A DNA stretch of 64,000 bases from Candidatus Roseilinea sp. (GTDB taxonomy: Bacteria; Chloroflexota; Anaerolineae; J036; Brachytrichaceae). Where the stretch lies: the NCBI GenBank assembly GCA_026003755.1, contig BPHV01000005.1, forward strand, positions 1-64,000. Direction: 5' to 3'. The position numbers and the translations under genes are program-made. The notes under the pieces are model-generated. The model was not told the origin of the DNA. It worked only from the letters and a program-made list of their open reading frames with translations, and searched no databases. Positions 53,687 through 60,953 of the stretch are shown here, one piece after another; within the stretch, counting starts at the first letter, position 1, and each line of letters begins with the position of its first letter.

Positions 53687-54742
53687 ATGATCCAACAAGC
53701 CATCGCCAAGCTGTTCACCCACACTTCGCTCACGGCTGAAGAGGCTGAGGAAGCGATGAACGACATCATGCGCGGCGCGGCCACGCCGGCGCAGATCGGC
53801 GCTTACCTGGCTGCGCTGCACATGAAGGGCGAATCCGCCGATGAGGTTGTGGGCAGCATGCGGGCGCTGCGGGCGCACATGGCGCGCATCCCCACCCATC
53901 AGCCCAAGCTGATTGACGTGGTCGGCACCGGCGGCGACCGCTCCAACACCTTCAACATCAGCACGACGACCGCATTTGTGGTGGCCGGCGCCGGCGTGCC
54001 GGTGGCCAAGCACGGTAATCGCGCCGCATCGTCGCAAAGCGGCAGCGCCGACGTGCTCCACGCGCTGGGCGTGAAAGTGGATCTGACGCCGGAGCAGGTC
54101 GGCCGTTGCATAGACGAGATCGGCATCGGTTTCGCTTTCGCGCCGGTGCACCATCCCGCCATGAAGAACGTCGCCGGCGCGCGCCGCGAGATCGGCCAGC
54201 GCACCATCTTCAACATCATCGGCCCGGCCACCAATCCCGCCCTCGCCCGCCACCACTTGCTCGGCGTGTGGGATTGGCGCTACGTGCGCCTGATGGCCGA
54301 TGTGCTGGTGCAACTGGAGGACGCGCACGCCTTGGTCGTCAGCGGCTCGTCGCCGCAGGTGGCCGGCATTGACGAGCTGACGACCGTTGGCCCCAACAGG
54401 GTCGCCGAAGTGCGCGACGGTCGGGTCACTGAGTATTCACTCGACGCGCTGGATTACGGCTTCAGACCGGCGACGCTCGATGACCTGGGCGGCGGCTCGC
54501 CGGAGTTTAACGCGGCCATCACCCGCGCCATCCTCTCCGGCGAAGACGTGCAGGCGCGCTGCGATGTGGTGCTGTTGAATGCGGGTGCGGCGCTCTACGC
54601 CGCCGATGCTGCGCCGGACATCGCGACCGGCATCGAAATGGCGCGCGAGAGCATCCGCAGTGGGGCCGCTCTGCAGAAGCTCGAGGCGCTGGTTGCGCTG
54701 AGCCAGAAGCTGGGCAGCGATTCAGGCGTCGCTTCACGTTAG
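53687..54742 (+). CDS. trpD: Anthranilate phosphoribosyltransferase
   Basis: Second step of tryptophan synthesis: anthranilate plus PRPP gives phosphoribosyl-anthranilate. 351 residues. PRPP loop VVGTGGDRSNTFNIST, KHGNRAASSQSGSADVLHAL, NVAGARREIGQRTIFNIIGP and TNPALARHHLLG are all canonical. No other trp gene is in the window. The stop overlaps the convergent acetyltransferase-argG gene by 4 bp. Confidence 0.93.
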   Translation: MIQQAIAKLFTHTSLTAEEAEEAMNDIMRGAATPAQIGAYLAALHMKGESADEVVGSMRALRAHMARIPTHQPKLIDVVGTGGDRSNTFNISTTTAFVVAGAGVPVAKHGNRAASSQSGSADVLHALGVKVDLTPEQVGRCIDEIGIGFAFAPVHHPAMKNVAGARREIGQRTIFNIIGPATNPALARHHLLGVWDWRYVRLMADVLVQLEDAHALVVSGSSPQVAGIDELTTVGPNRVAEVRDGRVTEYSLDALDYGFRPATLDDLGGGSPEFNAAITRAILSGEDVQARCDVVLLNAGAALYAADAAPDIATGIEMARESIRSGAALQKLEALVALSQKLGSDSGVASR

Positions 54743-56664
54743 CCCGTGTCCTGCGAGGTCGCGCGCGCCACGCGTCGTCGGTCAAGCTGCGCCTTGACGC
54801 GCATCGGCAGGCCATAGAGCTTCACGAAGCCGTCGGCGTCGTCGTGGTCGTAAGCCGCGTCGGTGTTGAAGGTGGCGAGGTCTTCGCGGTAGAGCGAATA
54901 GGCGGCGCGACGCTGCACGACCATCGCGTTGCCCTTGAACAGCTTGACGCGCGCGCTGCCGGTGACGTCGCGCTGAGTGACGGTGATGAAGGCCTGCAGC
55001 GCGTCGCGCAGCGGCGTGAACCACTGGCCGTTATAGACCACCTCGGCATACTTGAGCGCCACCATCTGCTTGAAGTGCATGGTCTCGCGGTCCAGCGTGA
55101 TTTCCTCCAGCCCCTGATGGGCGACGCGCAGGATGATGCCGCCGGGGGCTTCGTCCAGCCGGCGCACCTTCATGCCGATCAAGCGGTTCTCCACCAGATC
55201 GGCGCGGCCGATGCCGTGCAGCGAGCCGATCTCGTTCAGCCGCTCGATGAGCGCGGCGCCGCCCAGCGCGACGCCGTTCAGCCGCTTCGGTATGCCGTTG
55301 ATGAACTCGACTTCGACGTACTCCGGCTGATCGGGCGTCTCTTCGATGGCGTTCGTCCATTCCCACAAGCGCTCCTCCGGCTCATACTCCAAATCCTCCA
55401 GCCGGCCGCCTTCATGGCTGAAGTGCCAGAGGTTCTCGTCCGTCGTGTACACGCCTTTCTCGTATTCGCCCAGCGGCACGCCGCGCGAGCGAGCGTATTC
55501 ATAGACCTCCTGCCAGCCGTTGAACGCCCACTCGCGCCAGGGCGCGATGACGCGCAGTTTGGGGTTCATCGCCATGTAGGTCAGCTCGAAGCGCACCTGA
55601 TCGTTGCCTTTGCCGGTCGCGCCGTGCGCCACGGCGTCCGCGCCTTCGGCTTCGGCCACGGCCACCTGATGCTTGGCGATGAGCGGGCGCGAGATGGAAG
55701 AACCGAGCAGATACTTGTTCTCGTAGATCGCGCCGCTTTGGATCAGCGGGAAGAGATATTCGTTGGCGAACTCATCGCGCAAGTCTTTGATGATGACCTT
55801 GCTCGCGCCGGTGCGCAGCGCTTTCTGCCGGATGGCCTCGAAGTCCTCGCGCTGGCCGATGTCGGCGACGAAGCAGATCACCTCGCAGCCATAGTGTTCG
55901 ATCAGCCACGGCACGCTGGCCGACGAATCAAGCCCGCCGTTGTAGGCCAGCACCACCTTGCGCACATCGCGCTTGGGGACGGCGAAGCCCTGCGCGCGAT
56001 GGGTCTTGACCTCTTCGGTCAGCCGGGCGACTGTCTCCAGCGGGATGAGGTTCTCGCGGCTGACGGCGCGCCGCGCGATGCGCCCCGCCTGGATGGCTTG
56101 GAGCACGCGCTCACGATCTTCAGGGGTGACGCGAATGGCGCCGGGTTCGCCTTGCTGCAACGGCATCATCACGGCGACCTCGTCACAGTTCTCCAGCATT
56201 GGGCAGGCGACGCAATCGTTCCATACCTTCTCGGGAAAGAAGGCTTTGGGCGCTACGGTGAAGCCGCACTTTTCAAAAAAACCGACGACGCGGGTGAGCG
56301 CGAAGATGGTGCCGAACTGGCGCCGGCGCGCTTCTTCAACCAAGGCCGCAACGAGGCGCTGACCGATGCCGGCCCCGCGCGCCGCTTCGTCCACCGCCAG
56401 CGAGCGCAGCTCGACCAGCGTGGCGTTCATCGGCAGGAGCGAACCGCAGCCGACGATCCTGAATGGAGCGCCGAGCGCGTCCGGTCCGGCCTTCGACGAT
56501 CCTTCGTCTAGGGTCACTTGCACGGCGACGAGGAAATTGCCGATGTGCGCGCGCACGCTCGCCTCGTCGCGCGGCAGTAAGCCGCCCTTGCGCGCGTTCT
56601 GCGCGATCAGCATGACGATGGCCGGCACATCGTCGAGCGTCGCGGGTCGAATGATGACGGTCAC
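54739..56664 (-). CDS. Fusion: short N-acetylglutamate synthase-type GNAT + argininosuccinate synthase
   Basis: A 641-residue two-enzyme protein. Residues 1-168 are a GNAT acetyltransferase matching short ArgA-type N-acetylglutamate synthases: IIRPATLDDVPAIV, VELRSLAVDEAARGAGIGQR with the acetyl-CoA loop at about 96-102, FFEKCGF, EKVWNDCVACPMLENCDE with Cys151, Cys154 and Cys160. A linker of about 65 residues follows. Residues 235-641 are a full ArgG of the common type, with signature 2 (GATGKGNDQVRFE) intact but the PP-loop reading YNGGLDSS instead of YSGGLDTS. GTG at 56664 is 14 bp after the preceding argG stop. A predicted NAGS on the same chain as ArgG would put the first and a late enzyme of arginine synthesis together. 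Confidence 0.88.
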   Translation of the reverse strand: MTVIIRPATLDDVPAIVMLIAQNARKGGLLPRDEASVRAHIGNFLVAVQVTLDEGSSKAGPDALGAPFRIVGCGSLLPMNATLVELRSLAVDEAARGAGIGQRLVAALVEEARRRQFGTIFALTRVVGFFEKCGFTVAPKAFFPEKVWNDCVACPMLENCDEVAVMMPLQQGEPGAIRVTPEDRERVLQAIQAGRIARRAVSRENLIPLETVARLTEEVKTHRAQGFAVPKRDVRKVVLAYNGGLDSSASVPWLIEHYGCEVICFVADIGQREDFEAIRQKALRTGASKVIIKDLRDEFANEYLFPLIQSGAIYENKYLLGSSISRPLIAKHQVAVAEAEGADAVAHGATGKGNDQVRFELTYMAMNPKLRVIAPWREWAFNGWQEVYEYARSRGVPLGEYEKGVYTTDENLWHFSHEGGRLEDLEYEPEERLWEWTNAIEETPDQPEYVEVEFINGIPKRLNGVALGGAALIERLNEIGSLHGIGRADLVENRLIGMKVRRLDEAPGGIILRVAHQGLEEITLDRETMHFKQMVALKYAEVVYNGQWFTPLRDALQAFITVTQRDVTGSARVKLFKGNAMVVQRRAAYSLYREDLATFNTDAAYDHDDADGFVKLYGLPMRVKAQLDRRRVARATSQDTG

Positions 56665-56677
56665 GGCAACCGGCCCT

Positions 56678-58090
<1,413 letters not shown>

Positions 58091-58148: not shown

Positions 58149-59381
58149 CTATGTTGGCGACGCGAACACCGTCCCATCGCCGCCGGCCAGCCCGGCCAAG
58201 TTGGTGATGCGCACGCGATGCACGCCCGCCTCAAGCGCCTCGAGCGCCGCCCGCACCTTGGGGATCATGCCGCCGGAGATTGCGCCGTCGGCGATCATGG
58301 TTTCGACTTGGGCCGCGGAGAGATGGGGGATGAGCGAGCCGCCTCGATCGAGCACCCCCGGCACGTTGGTCACGAACGTGAGCATGTCGGCATCCACCGC
58401 GACGGCAATCGCGCCGGCGATGTGATCGGCGTTGACGTTGTAGATCGCGCCATCGGCGCCCAGCGACATCGGCGCAATCACCGGCGTGAGGCCCTGCGCG
58501 AGCCATGCGGCGATCAACGGCGCGCGCACGCTGACGGGCCGACCGACGAAACCGAGGGCGTCGTCGAGGCGCGCCACGCGGACTAAGCCGGCGTCGAGGC
58601 CGCTGAGGCCGACGGCGTCCACGCCTTGCCCAATCAGGGCGGCGACCAACTTTTTGTTCGCCAGCCCGCTCAACGCCATCAGCGCTGCGTCGCGCGTCTG
58701 GGCGTCGGTCACCCGCAGGCCATCCACAAACTGCGTCGGCGTATCCATCATGGCCAGCAGTTGGGTCAGCGCCTTGCCGCCGCCGTGCGCGATGATCGGC
58801 TGCGCGCCGGCGCGCTTCATCCGCGCGATGGACTCGGCGAACTGCGCCACGAAGGCCGGATCGTCCAGCTCGCCGCCGCCGACTTTGATCACTTGCGCAC
58901 CGGCCAGCCGAGCCGGCGATAGGTCGAGGCCCAGGTAGAGGAGGCCGGGGACGGTCGAAGGCTTGAAGGGCGGGATCTCGGTGAAGCCGAGTTGGCGATA
59001 CAGCGCCACGGCGTCTTCCGCATCGGCCCAGGTGCTGATGGCCACCTGCGCAAATCCGCGCGCGCGCACAATCTCGATGATGTGTTTCGCGAGCGCGCGC
59101 GCGACCCCCCGGCGACGATATTCCGGGCGCACATAGACGCGCTTCATCTCGACCAGCGCCGGCGTGTGCTGCGTCCAGGCCGCGGTGGCGATGGGTTGGC
59201 CGTCACACCGCGCCAGGAACATGCCGCCGCGCGGCGCCGCGTAGCGCCCGGGCAGGTCTTGCAAGTCCTGCGCCATGCGCTCGCTAAAGCCGTTCGGGCG
59301 CTCCCGGTAGTAGTCCATCAGCAGCGCGCGAAACTGCGCGATCTGCTCCGGCGAAGTGACCTCGACGATTTCGATGTTCAT
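58149..59381 (-). CDS. argB: Fusion: GNAT acetyltransferase + acetylglutamate kinase
   Basis: A 410-residue two-domain protein. Residues 1-150 are a GNAT acetyltransferase (VEMKRVYVRPEYRRRGVARA, STWADAEDAVALYRQLGFTE) of a general subfamily, different from the GNAT fused to ArgG. Residues 162-410 are acetylglutamate kinase, with KVGGGELDDP, AHGGGKALT (substrate loop), NVNADHIAGAIAVAVDADML and NVPGVLDRGG. The kinase phosphorylates N-acetylglutamate. The start ATG at 59381 overlaps the argC stop (ATGA) with a GAGGGG ribosome site. NAGS-NAGK fusions exist elsewhere, but usually in another order or with a degenerate kinase; whether this GNAT acts on glutamate is unknown. Confidence 0.9.
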   Translation of the reverse strand: MNIEIVEVTSPEQIAQFRALLMDYYRERPNGFSERMAQDLQDLPGRYAAPRGGMFLARCDGQPIATAAWTQHTPALVEMKRVYVRPEYRRRGVARALAKHIIEIVRARGFAQVAISTWADAEDAVALYRQLGFTEIPPFKPSTVPGLLYLGLDLSPARLAGAQVIKVGGGELDDPAFVAQFAESIARMKRAGAQPIIAHGGGKALTQLLAMMDTPTQFVDGLRVTDAQTRDAALMALSGLANKKLVAALIGQGVDAVGLSGLDAGLVRVARLDDALGFVGRPVSVRAPLIAAWLAQGLTPVIAPMSLGADGAIYNVNADHIAGAIAVAVDADMLTFVTNVPGVLDRGGSLIPHLSAAQVETMIADGAISGGMIPKVRAALEALEAGVHRVRITNLAGLAGGDGTVFASPT

Positions 59382-60442
59382 CGCAACCCCTCGCATTCAT
59401 CCAGGCCGAACATCACGTTCATGTTCTGCACGGCCTGGCCGCTTGCGCCCTTCACCAGGTTATCTATACAAGAGACGATTTGCAAGCGATCGGGCATGCC
59501 GGCGACCGGATGCACCGACAGCACGGCGTAGTTCGTGTGCGCGGCGTGGGCGATCGTCGCAATCTGCCCCTTGGGCAGCACGCGCACGAACGGCTCGCCC
59601 GCGTAGCGCTGCGCGAAGATCGCGTGCCAGTCCTGCCGCGCCGCCTCTGGCGTGAGCCGGACGTAGATCATGCTCAATATGCCGCGCGAGATCGGCAAGA
59701 GGTGAGGGGAGAAGATCACGGAGATGGGAGATGGGGGATTAGAGATTGAATCTTCGGTCTCAAATCTCCAATCTTCACCTTGCCAGGCAGCGTTCAACTC
59801 CTGCTCGATCTCCGGCACGTGGCGGTGCACATGGCCGATGTTGTACGGCGCGAGCGATTCGTTCACTTCGACGAAATGGGTCGCCTGGGTTGGCTTGCGC
59901 CCTGCGCCGCTCACGCCGCTTTTGCTGTCGGCGATGATCACCGGATCGGCTAATGCGCCCAGCTCTAACAACGGCAACAGGCCGAGGATGATGCTGGTGG
60001 GATAGCAGCCGGGGTTGGCCACCAGTGGCGCGTTGGCGATGTCGCGCCGATAGACCTCGGGCAAGCCGTAGACGGCCTCGGCCAGCAATTCGGGATGCGG
60101 GTGAGCATGTTTATACCACTCGGCGTAGGTTGCGGCGTCGCGCAGTCGGAAGTCCGCCGAGAAGTCCACAACCCGCCGGCCAGCGTCCAGCGCGCGCTTA
60201 CACACCTCGGCGCTGGCGCCATGCGGCAGGCACGAGAACACGATGTCCACTTCATCCAGCGGCGCGTCGTCTGCCGGAACGAGGGTCAAGTCGAACGGGC
60301 AAGGCATCACGTCGCTCAGCTTCGCGCCGGCGTGGCTTTCGCTGTGCGCGAAGACGACGCGCGCGTGGCGATGCCGCGCCAGCCATCTGACCAGTTCCGC
60401 GCCGGTGTAGCCGGTCGCCCCGAAGATTCCCGCCTTGATCAT
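59378..60442 (-). CDS. argC: N-acetyl-gamma-glutamyl-phosphate reductase
   Basis: Third step of arginine synthesis, NADPH-dependent reduction of the acyl phosphate. 354 residues from MIKAGIFGATGYTGAELVRW at 60442. GATGYTGAEL is the NADP loop; catalytic Cys146 lies in NPGCYPTS; GVSGAGRKPT and HRHVPEIEQEL are typical. Residues about 222-241 (GEDWRFETEDSISNPPSPIS) are an insertion relative to the usual family sequence, encoded by a heptamer-repeat-like hairpin. First structural gene of the operon, behind an attenuator-like leader of about 200 bp. Confidence 0.92.
   Translation of the reverse strand: MIKAGIFGATGYTGAELVRWLARHRHARVVFAHSESHAGAKLSDVMPCPFDLTLVPADDAPLDEVDIVFSCLPHGASAEVCKRALDAGRRVVDFSADFRLRDAATYAEWYKHAHPHPELLAEAVYGLPEVYRRDIANAPLVANPGCYPTSIILGLLPLLELGALADPVIIADSKSGVSGAGRKPTQATHFVEVNESLAPYNIGHVHRHVPEIEQELNAAWQGEDWRFETEDSISNPPSPISVIFSPHLLPISRGILSMIYVRLTPEAARQDWHAIFAQRYAGEPFVRVLPKGQIATIAHAAHTNYAVLSVHPVAGMPDRLQIVSCIDNLVKGASGQAVQNMNVMFGLDECEGLR
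59720..59777. repeat. Heptamer-repeat insertion inside argC
   Basis: GATTAGAGATTGA (59737-59749) and TCAAATCTCCAATC (59760-59773) pair as an imperfect hairpin; the adjoining GGAGATGGGAGATGG is also a seven-base iteration. The motifs GATTAGA and TCTCCAA are units of array R2 between dnaB and the DnaD-like gene. The insertion keeps the argC reading frame. Confidence 0.7.
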
Positions 60443-60500
60443 CTTTCGTTGGTGATTGCGCTGCTCAGCCGATGGAACAAAAGACGCGTGCCAAAACGGA

Positions 60501-60534
60501 AAGCCCCTAACACCGCGCCGTGTGTCAGGGGCTT
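60501..60534 (-). terminator. Attenuator-type hairpin before argC
   Basis: Minus strand 60534 to 60501: AAGCCCCTGACAC pairs over 13 bp (one G-U) with GTGTTAGGGGCTT around an eight-base loop, followed by TCCGTTTTGG. It lies 58 bp before argC. The 5' arm overlaps GACACACGG (60526-60518), the exact complement of CCGTGTGTC (60600-60592) inside the leader reading frame. The two pairings exclude each other. Confidence 0.65.
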
Positions 60535-60560
60535 CGCTGCGAAACCGAGCGCAATCGAGA

Positions 60561-60644
60561 CTAGCCTCGTCGCGCGCGCGCGCATGCGCCGGACACACGG
60601 CCCATGGAACGCGGGCGACGGAAGCGGATCTCGATAGCCACCAT
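60561..60644 (-). CDS. Putative arginine-rich leader peptide of the arg operon
   Basis: A 27-codon frame from ATG at 60644 to TAG at 60561 between the promoter and argC. Arg codons are 7, 9, 10, 12, 16, 23, 25 and 26, i.e. eight of 27. The predicted transcript start is about 3-4 bases before the ATG, so it would be translated as a leaderless mRNA. A longer ATG (four codons upstream) overlaps the -10 box. The stop is 27 bp before the attenuator hairpin. Arginine richness in a GC-rich genome is not proof, but the position, promoter and competing hairpin fit a sensor for charged tRNA-Arg. Confidence 0.55.
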   Translation of the reverse strand: MVAIEIRFRRPRSMGRVSGACARARRG

Positions 60645-60654
60645 TTCGCCGCGC

Positions 60655-60682
60655 ATTATATGAGGATGAGCGCACCTGTCAA
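60655..60682 (-). promoter_or_regulatory. Consensus sigma-70 promoter of the arginine operon
   Basis: -35 TTGACA (60682-60677) and -10 TATAAT (60660-60655), both perfect, separated by 16 bp. The transcript should start at about 60648, ten bases after the -10 being the leader-peptide ATG at 60644. Confidence 0.85.
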
Positions 60683-60713: not shown

Positions 60714-60742
60714 TTGACACATGGGGACATCCTCGTTACATT
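60714..60742 (+). promoter_or_regulatory. Promoter of the zinc-ribbon protein gene
   Basis: TTGACA (60714-60719), 17 bp, TACATT (60737-60742), then ten bases to the ATG at 60753. Same spacing from -10 to start codon as in the divergent arg promoter 50 bp away. Confidence 0.7.
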
Positions 60743-60752
60743 TCCGCTTAGC

Positions 60753-60953
60753 ATGCGCGTATCGCTCTATGCCGGTCGTCGTGTCGCCTGGTTGCGCTTT
60801 CATGCGGAGTCTGGCGAGTTCATCCCTCAGAAAGACTGGGATCAGTATGAGAACTGTGCGCAGTGCCACGGGCGCGCTGAGATAGACGAAACGCCGGAAG
60901 GCGATTTGATTTGTCATCTCTGTCGCGCTATGCTCCCCCGTCCGGCAACCTGA
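60753..60953 (+). CDS. Small zinc-ribbon protein
   Basis: A 66-residue protein from MRVSLYAGRRVAWLRFHAES at 60753, divergent from the arg operon. Two CxxC pairs (CAQC and CHLC, 20 residues apart) form a probable zinc ribbon. The frame is open further upstream, but the promoter places the transcript start right at this ATG. No family identified. Confidence 0.6.
   Translation: MRVSLYAGRRVAWLRFHAESGEFIPQKDWDQYENCAQCHGRAEIDETPEGDLICHLCRAMLPRPAT

Follow-up and report, generated by a model that had tools for sequence, protein, structure and literature searches.

Bacterial arg operons are usually controlled by ArgR/AhrC repression or by arginine T-boxes, and serve as textbook examples of both. The locus described here raises the question of whether an arginine operon can be controlled by translation of a short Arg-rich leader peptide ahead of a pair of competing hairpins. 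It lies in the window, that is, the whole stretch of 64,000 nt of Candidatus Roseilinea sp. that was analysed (contig BPHV01000005.1, assembly GCA_026003755.1), where an earlier note made from the sequence had proposed attenuation of this kind. The proposal was followed up by comparison of argC leaders within the GTDB family, across the class (Anaerolineae, as assigned from named relatives) and beyond it, and by RNA folding.

Leader and operon in the window

The promoter, leader ORF, hairpins and argC were all found on the minus strand (Table 1). The consensus promoter and the near-leaderless frame with eight Arg codons were present as the earlier note had described them: the -35 and -10 elements match the consensus at 12 of 12 positions, and the frame (60644-60561) translates as MVAIEIRFRRPRSMGRVSGACARARRG followed by a stop, with Arg at codons 7, 9, 10, 12, 16, 23, 25 and 26. 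The 5' UTR of this ORF is predicted to be about 3-4 nt long, and codons 7, 9, 10 and 12 are the predicted stall sites.

The complementarity between segments 2 and 3, the 13-bp stem and the T-rich tail were likewise located where they had been placed. Complementarity between the two segments extends to 10 nt (GCCGTGTGTC/GACACACGGC), and a complement of 9-10 nt was reached in none of 200 shuffles of the upstream stretch. The terminator hairpin, AAGCCCCTGACAC-ACGGCGCG-GTGTTAGGGGCTT, is followed by TCCGTTTT and ends 58 bp upstream of argC. The leader RNA fold was more stable than that of shuffled sequences (z = -4.7); a stock terminator scan of the window did not flag the hairpin at 60534-60501. 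A further hairpin within the ORF (1:2), which was absent from the earlier description, shares bases with the antiterminator strand and accounts for the OFF state.

The operon carries tandem argG genes of different types, the second with an N-terminal GNAT domain, and this GNAT-argG fusion looks unusual. A second argC-like gene of the genome sits behind a lysX-like gene, has no such leader and is probably lysY, the lysX and lysY names having been judged from sequence and not by family search.

Table 1. Positions of the leader elements and operon genes in the window
Feature	Position	Strand	Basis or remark
-35 element TTGACA	60677..60682	-	window sequence; TTGACA common to most class members
-10 element TATAAT, 16-nt spacer	60655..60660	-	TATAAT kept by almost every family leader
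Leader peptide ORF, 27 codons, ATG 60644 10 nt past -10	60561..60644	-	no Shine-Dalgarno
Conserved Arg cluster, codons 7, 9, 10, 12 (R-F-R-R-P-R)	60609..60626	-	aligned leaders
1:2 hairpin TGGGC-CGTGT-GTCCG within ORF, 5 bp	60590..60604	-	covariation and fold
Segment 2, antiterminator strand CCGTGTGTC	60592..60600	-	exact complement of segment 3
Segment 3 GACACACGG	60518..60526	-	partner: segment 2 (antiterminator) or segment 4 (terminator)
3:4 intrinsic terminator, 13-bp stem, 8-nt loop	60501..60534	-	sequence and fold
Imperfect U-tract TCCGTTTT	60493..60500	-	directly after 13-bp stem
argC (N-acetyl-gamma-glutamyl-phosphate reductase)	59378..60442	-	TIGR01850, 370 bits
GNAT-argB fusion, acetylglutamate kinase domain 164-392	58149..59381	-	TIGR00761 and PF00583
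argG, PRK05370 type	56678..58081	-	NF003779, 828 bits
GNAT-argG fusion, PRK00509 type	54739..56655	-	NF001770 and PF00583

Conservation of the leader within the family

The sequences compared come largely from draft or uncultured genomes. The family sample comprised 22 genomes with this argC, which gave 21 readable leaders, one leader being cut by a contig end. The order of promoter, Arg-bearing ORF, terminator and argC was the same in all 21. Homologous leaders lacking the Arg codons or the complementarity were sought; it was observed that the motif R-x-R-R was kept in 20 of the 21 and the complementarity of segments 2 and 3 in most. In three leaders (L015, L016 and L022) this pairing was weak or undetectable; the Arg cluster and terminator are present in these, and the pairing may have decayed or taken another form. 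Four family genomes of genus g2 (G009, G016, G021 and G025) were without the family's arginine argC and had distant copies only.

Among 20 aligned peptides both residues of the RR pair were invariant and the first R nearly so (Cys replaces it in L007), while the RR codons of close pairs showed synonymous differences only. In the alignment the family peptides show R-x-R-R, about 6 codons and then V-S-G; the codons for V-S-G hold the antiterminator strand, and R-x-R-R stands at a nearly fixed distance from it (6-7 codons). Of the Arg codons counted in the earlier note, only the early ones (7, 9, 10 and usually 12) are conserved; the C-terminal Arg run is particular to the window's genus.

The 1:2 hairpin was also recovered across the family, within the ORF and immediately past the Arg cluster, with CTGGACA or CCGGGCA as segment 1 and TGTCTGG or TGTCCGG as segment 2. 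Pairing held in 80% of cells and covariation scored 0.276, compared to 0.184 in shuffles (reached in 0 of 500); the hairpin measures 6-7 bp in several relatives versus 5 bp in the window. No covariation signal was obtained for the 2:3 helix within the family, where its nearly invariant core makes the measure uninformative, and support for this helix comes from swaps between lineages. When terminator arms were exchanged among leaders of the family, the arm fitted its own leader better than swapped ones (3 of 5000 permutations). In each of 20 family genomes a covariance model of the leader returned a single full-length copy, at argC; no copies were found before other arg genes, and the remaining hits were terminator-like fragments and one weak match inside a repeat protein.

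No Shine-Dalgarno sequence was found in any family leader. Nine leaders start 7 nt from the -10 element, three at 8-9 nt and one at 13 nt; in the window's genus and one other leader the distance was 10 nt. By the criterion of PMC3160421, which asks for a -10 element some 10 nt ahead of the start and no Shine-Dalgarno, the family leaders, including that of the window, would count as leaderless. The near-leaderless start of the earlier note was borne out by the 10-nt spacing in the window; in most relatives outside the genus the start lies exactly 7 nt from the -10 element, so that those leaders are leaderless outright.

Leaderless genes look common in the genus, because TATAAT-N7-ATG occurred about ten times as often as the reversed pattern (94 versus 9, summed over nine genus genomes); in four Chloroflexi genomes they were predicted at 4-6% (PMC3160421). 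Recurrent starts, among them MANEDSKLVLVV and MTKRIVALV, are seen after TATAAT-N7-ATG in the genus. Divergent from the arginine promoter, at 60714-60953 on the plus strand, TTGACA-17-TACATT stands 11 nt from an ATG (60754) that opens a 66-codon frame bearing two CxxC motifs, a candidate for a further short-leader or leaderless gene.

These data bear on a first alternative, namely that a genuine attenuator is decaying in the window's genus, or is translated there from an upstream or internal start and not as a leaderless ORF. The U-tract is interrupted in the genus and uninterrupted in several other family genera, the -10 spacing is 10 nt as against 7 nt, and one species (L007) has lost R7. The promoter, RR pair, complementarity and stem are nevertheless all kept in the seven close genus members with full leaders, an in-frame ATG at -2 overlaps the -10 element and would stay untranscribed, and none of the possible starts is preceded by a Shine-Dalgarno sequence. 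We regard this alternative as unlikely, though the least improbable of those considered.

Arg codons and pairing across the class

A further set of about 80 argC upstream stretches from the class (L122-L201) was read, and residue statistics were calculated for 96 class loci with a strong terminator. Arg was the most enriched leader residue (z = 15), followed by Met (7.4). At least four Arg in 8 codons were present in 62% of the 96 loci compared to 8% of shuffles, and at least three in about 88 of the 94 class loci where an ORF could be called. In 54% of the 96 loci, compared to 9% of shuffles, terminator arm and leader were complementary over at least 7 nt, and the terminator arm again fitted its own leader better than swapped leaders (0 of 5000 permutations). 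As for compensatory change in related genomes, which the earlier note had named as a check, terminator and antiterminator shift together from lineage to lineage in both the family and the class permutations.

Leaders without a Shine-Dalgarno sequence and with a -10 spacing of 6-10 nt, hence leaderless, also occur in part of the class beyond the family, and others, in several families, have a Shine-Dalgarno sequence, with 20-70 nt preceding the start; class counts of the two kinds are approximate, as automatic ORF choice misplaces some starts. The occurrence of both starts on the same attenuator in different families forms a natural series for a switch of initiation mode.

The class-wide peptides also bear on a nascent-chain arrest peptide, in which an N-terminal Arg-X-Arg, or free arginine as ligand, would stop the ribosome in place of slow Arg decoding. 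Motifs of the +X+ type are known stall motifs, and the R-x-R-R of the family falls within the first 4-12 residues. V-S-G is conserved in the family too, where it overlaps the RNA pairing. An Arg-Leu-Arg motif of a leader has been discussed (PMC8632094). Across families, however, the peptides share little but Arg (PRSPRR, PRRPR, LRSRR and RRRR) and the cluster lies anywhere from near the start to more than 20 codons in. Codon sensing fits this pattern better, and arrest by the peptide itself is quite improbable.

It is less probable still that the Arg-rich frame arose by chance, as an ORF of GC-rich DNA, and that the hairpin is a plain terminator or processing stem without any sensing. In the window alone the density of the Arg cluster is not significant, as 17.5% of shuffles of this GC-rich stretch reached it, and its significance therefore rests on the relatives. 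There, the near-universal R-x-R-R and the constant order of start, promoter and terminator in the family, and the class-wide enrichment of Arg, which is retained through both codon boxes (346 CGN and 111 AGR in class leaders), all speak against chance.

Occurrence outside the class

In other classes of the phylum, an Arg leader with a terminator was found at 4 of 40 argC loci (G451, G395, G430 and G367), whose argC are among the most similar to that of the window; some genomes of a sister class therefore carry a related form of the leader. By this test no Arg leader was found at the other 36, including G437, which also has one of the closest argC. Antiterminator and terminator strands shift together here as well, with GGTTCGG/CCGAACC in G395 and GGTTCAG/CTGAACC in G367. 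Among 71 loci from other phyla and unclassified Chloroflexi, six Arg-dense frames preceded a terminator; these were mostly rpsI ends, with one chance match and one locus from a Chloroflexi bin (L072), and no attenuator was identified in the outgroup phyla. In many proteobacteria and related phyla (L041-L111) argC directly follows rpsI and its terminator, a promoter context different from that in the class.

Folding and proposed mechanism

Folding was compared in both states, with an assumed ribosome footprint of about 12 nt placed on the RR codons. With the ribosome in this position and RNA synthesised only as far as segment 3, the 2:3 antiterminator helix was predicted in 5 of 5 leaders; the downstream RNA folded alone gave the terminator, and 1:2 was predicted for the stretch behind a ribosome that had reached the stop codon. 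Mutual exclusion of antiterminator and terminator, as the earlier note had it, is thus backed by the shuffles of the upstream stretch, the swap test and the fold of the RNA truncated at segment 3. At equilibrium the terminator was favoured over the antiterminator even with a stalled ribosome, and the switch must therefore be kinetic, like known attenuators. As the RR pair stands 6-7 codons ahead of the antiterminator codons in the family, a ribosome stalled there would mask segment 1 and free segment 2.

Taken with the R-x-R-R conservation, the class-wide Arg enrichment and the swap tests, these results support the interpretation of the earlier note, that an Arg-rich leader peptide with competing hairpins attenuates the arginine operon. 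The parts are in place and conserved, they change in lockstep between lineages, and their geometry is that of an attenuator; from this we infer translation of the leader, stalling, termination and a response to arginine. The element is very probably an attenuator of the trp/his type in which the ribosome, by sensing charged arginyl-tRNA, governs transcription of the argC operon, with a sensor that is leaderless in the family. In the proposed scheme the ribosome would enter at, or within about 4 nt of, the transcript 5' end by leaderless initiation. When Arg-tRNA is scarce it would stall on the R-x-R-R codons and cover segment 1, so that CCGTGTGTC could pair with GACACACGG once segment 3 has been made; this helix would block the terminator and the operon would be read. 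When Arg-tRNA is ample the ribosome would reach the stop codon, the 1:2 hairpin would re-form behind it, 3:4 would follow, and transcription would stop near 60500.

Other regulators

The ArgR DNA-binding domain (PF01316) was detected in none of 60 class genomes, while the same search was positive in 9 of 14 control genomes. No match to the T-box family (RF00230) was found in the leader, and an Rfam search of the window and ten class leaders returned no known element at the leader. Alternative hairpins by themselves do not prove that a ribosome is the sensor, but with no Rfam family matched and Arg codons as the invariant feature, an RNA-binding protein or arginine-binding riboswitch that flips the hairpins, with the ORF incidental, is the least probable of the alternatives.

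Leaderless His or Trp leaders of the same design were sought with a pattern (TATAAT, short gap, ATG, CAYCAYCAY or TGGTGG) and none was found, the matches being scattered or in ordinary genes and rejected as sister attenuators.

It is likely that, in much of the class and part of a sister group, Arg-codon attenuation replaces ArgR, in some lineages, including the window's family, with a leaderless sensor ORF and an intrinsic terminator. In a class without detected ArgR, Arg-codon attenuators before argC would represent an alternative solution for arginine operons. The natural series, in which one switch is combined with Shine-Dalgarno or with leaderless initiation, makes it a testable question whether a ribosome entering at the 5' end keeps pace with RNA polymerase closely enough for an attenuator.

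Comparison with known systems

What the data support is attenuation of the trp type in which arginine is sensed, class-wide and, in the family of the window, by a leaderless ORF. A search of open-access full text, which takes in little of the subscription literature, gave no previous account of Arg codons attenuating arginine synthesis, and this form of attenuator may be new. A 2005 survey described attenuators for His, Thr and Phe, and for arginine named T-boxes (PMC1262725). The absence of a detected ArgR N-terminal domain in the class genomes and of a T-box in the leader sets the present system apart from both of the usual controls.

Arg codons of a leader are known to sense arginine in other bacteria. 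In Salmonella, two consecutive Arg codons of speF orf34 pause the ribosome at low arginine and the RNA structure changes (PMC6386406); in contrast to the leader described here, orf34 affects a polyamine gene by way of Rho and RNase G, with no intrinsic-terminator switch on arginine biosynthesis. In Staphylococcus aureus, the Arg codons of the rbfL leader peptide sense arginine limitation (PMC13009471), but this peptide has eight codons, is led by a Shine-Dalgarno sequence and blocks the RBS of a biofilm regulator, so that its effect is translational and opposite in sign to that of the attenuator proposed here.

Leaderless sensing has a parallel in mycobacteria, where, as a review summarises (Canestrari 2020, in PMC9031893), leaderless polycysteine short ORFs attenuate a downstream operon. 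As far as that summary goes, both cases share a sensor ORF that is leaderless and in which codons for a single amino acid occur in runs; the mycobacterial ORFs differ in that they concern cysteine, belong to Actinobacteria and affect downstream translation, whereas here an intrinsic terminator and an antiterminator are visible.

A close likeness is that to the proteobacterial trp, his, thr, phe and leu attenuators, which also have a short ORF with codons for the pathway product, 1:2, 2:3 and 3:4 helices, and an intrinsic terminator before the first structural gene. The leader described here differs from them in the amino acid sensed (arginine), in its target (argC), in its leaderless ORF and in its phylum (Chloroflexota).
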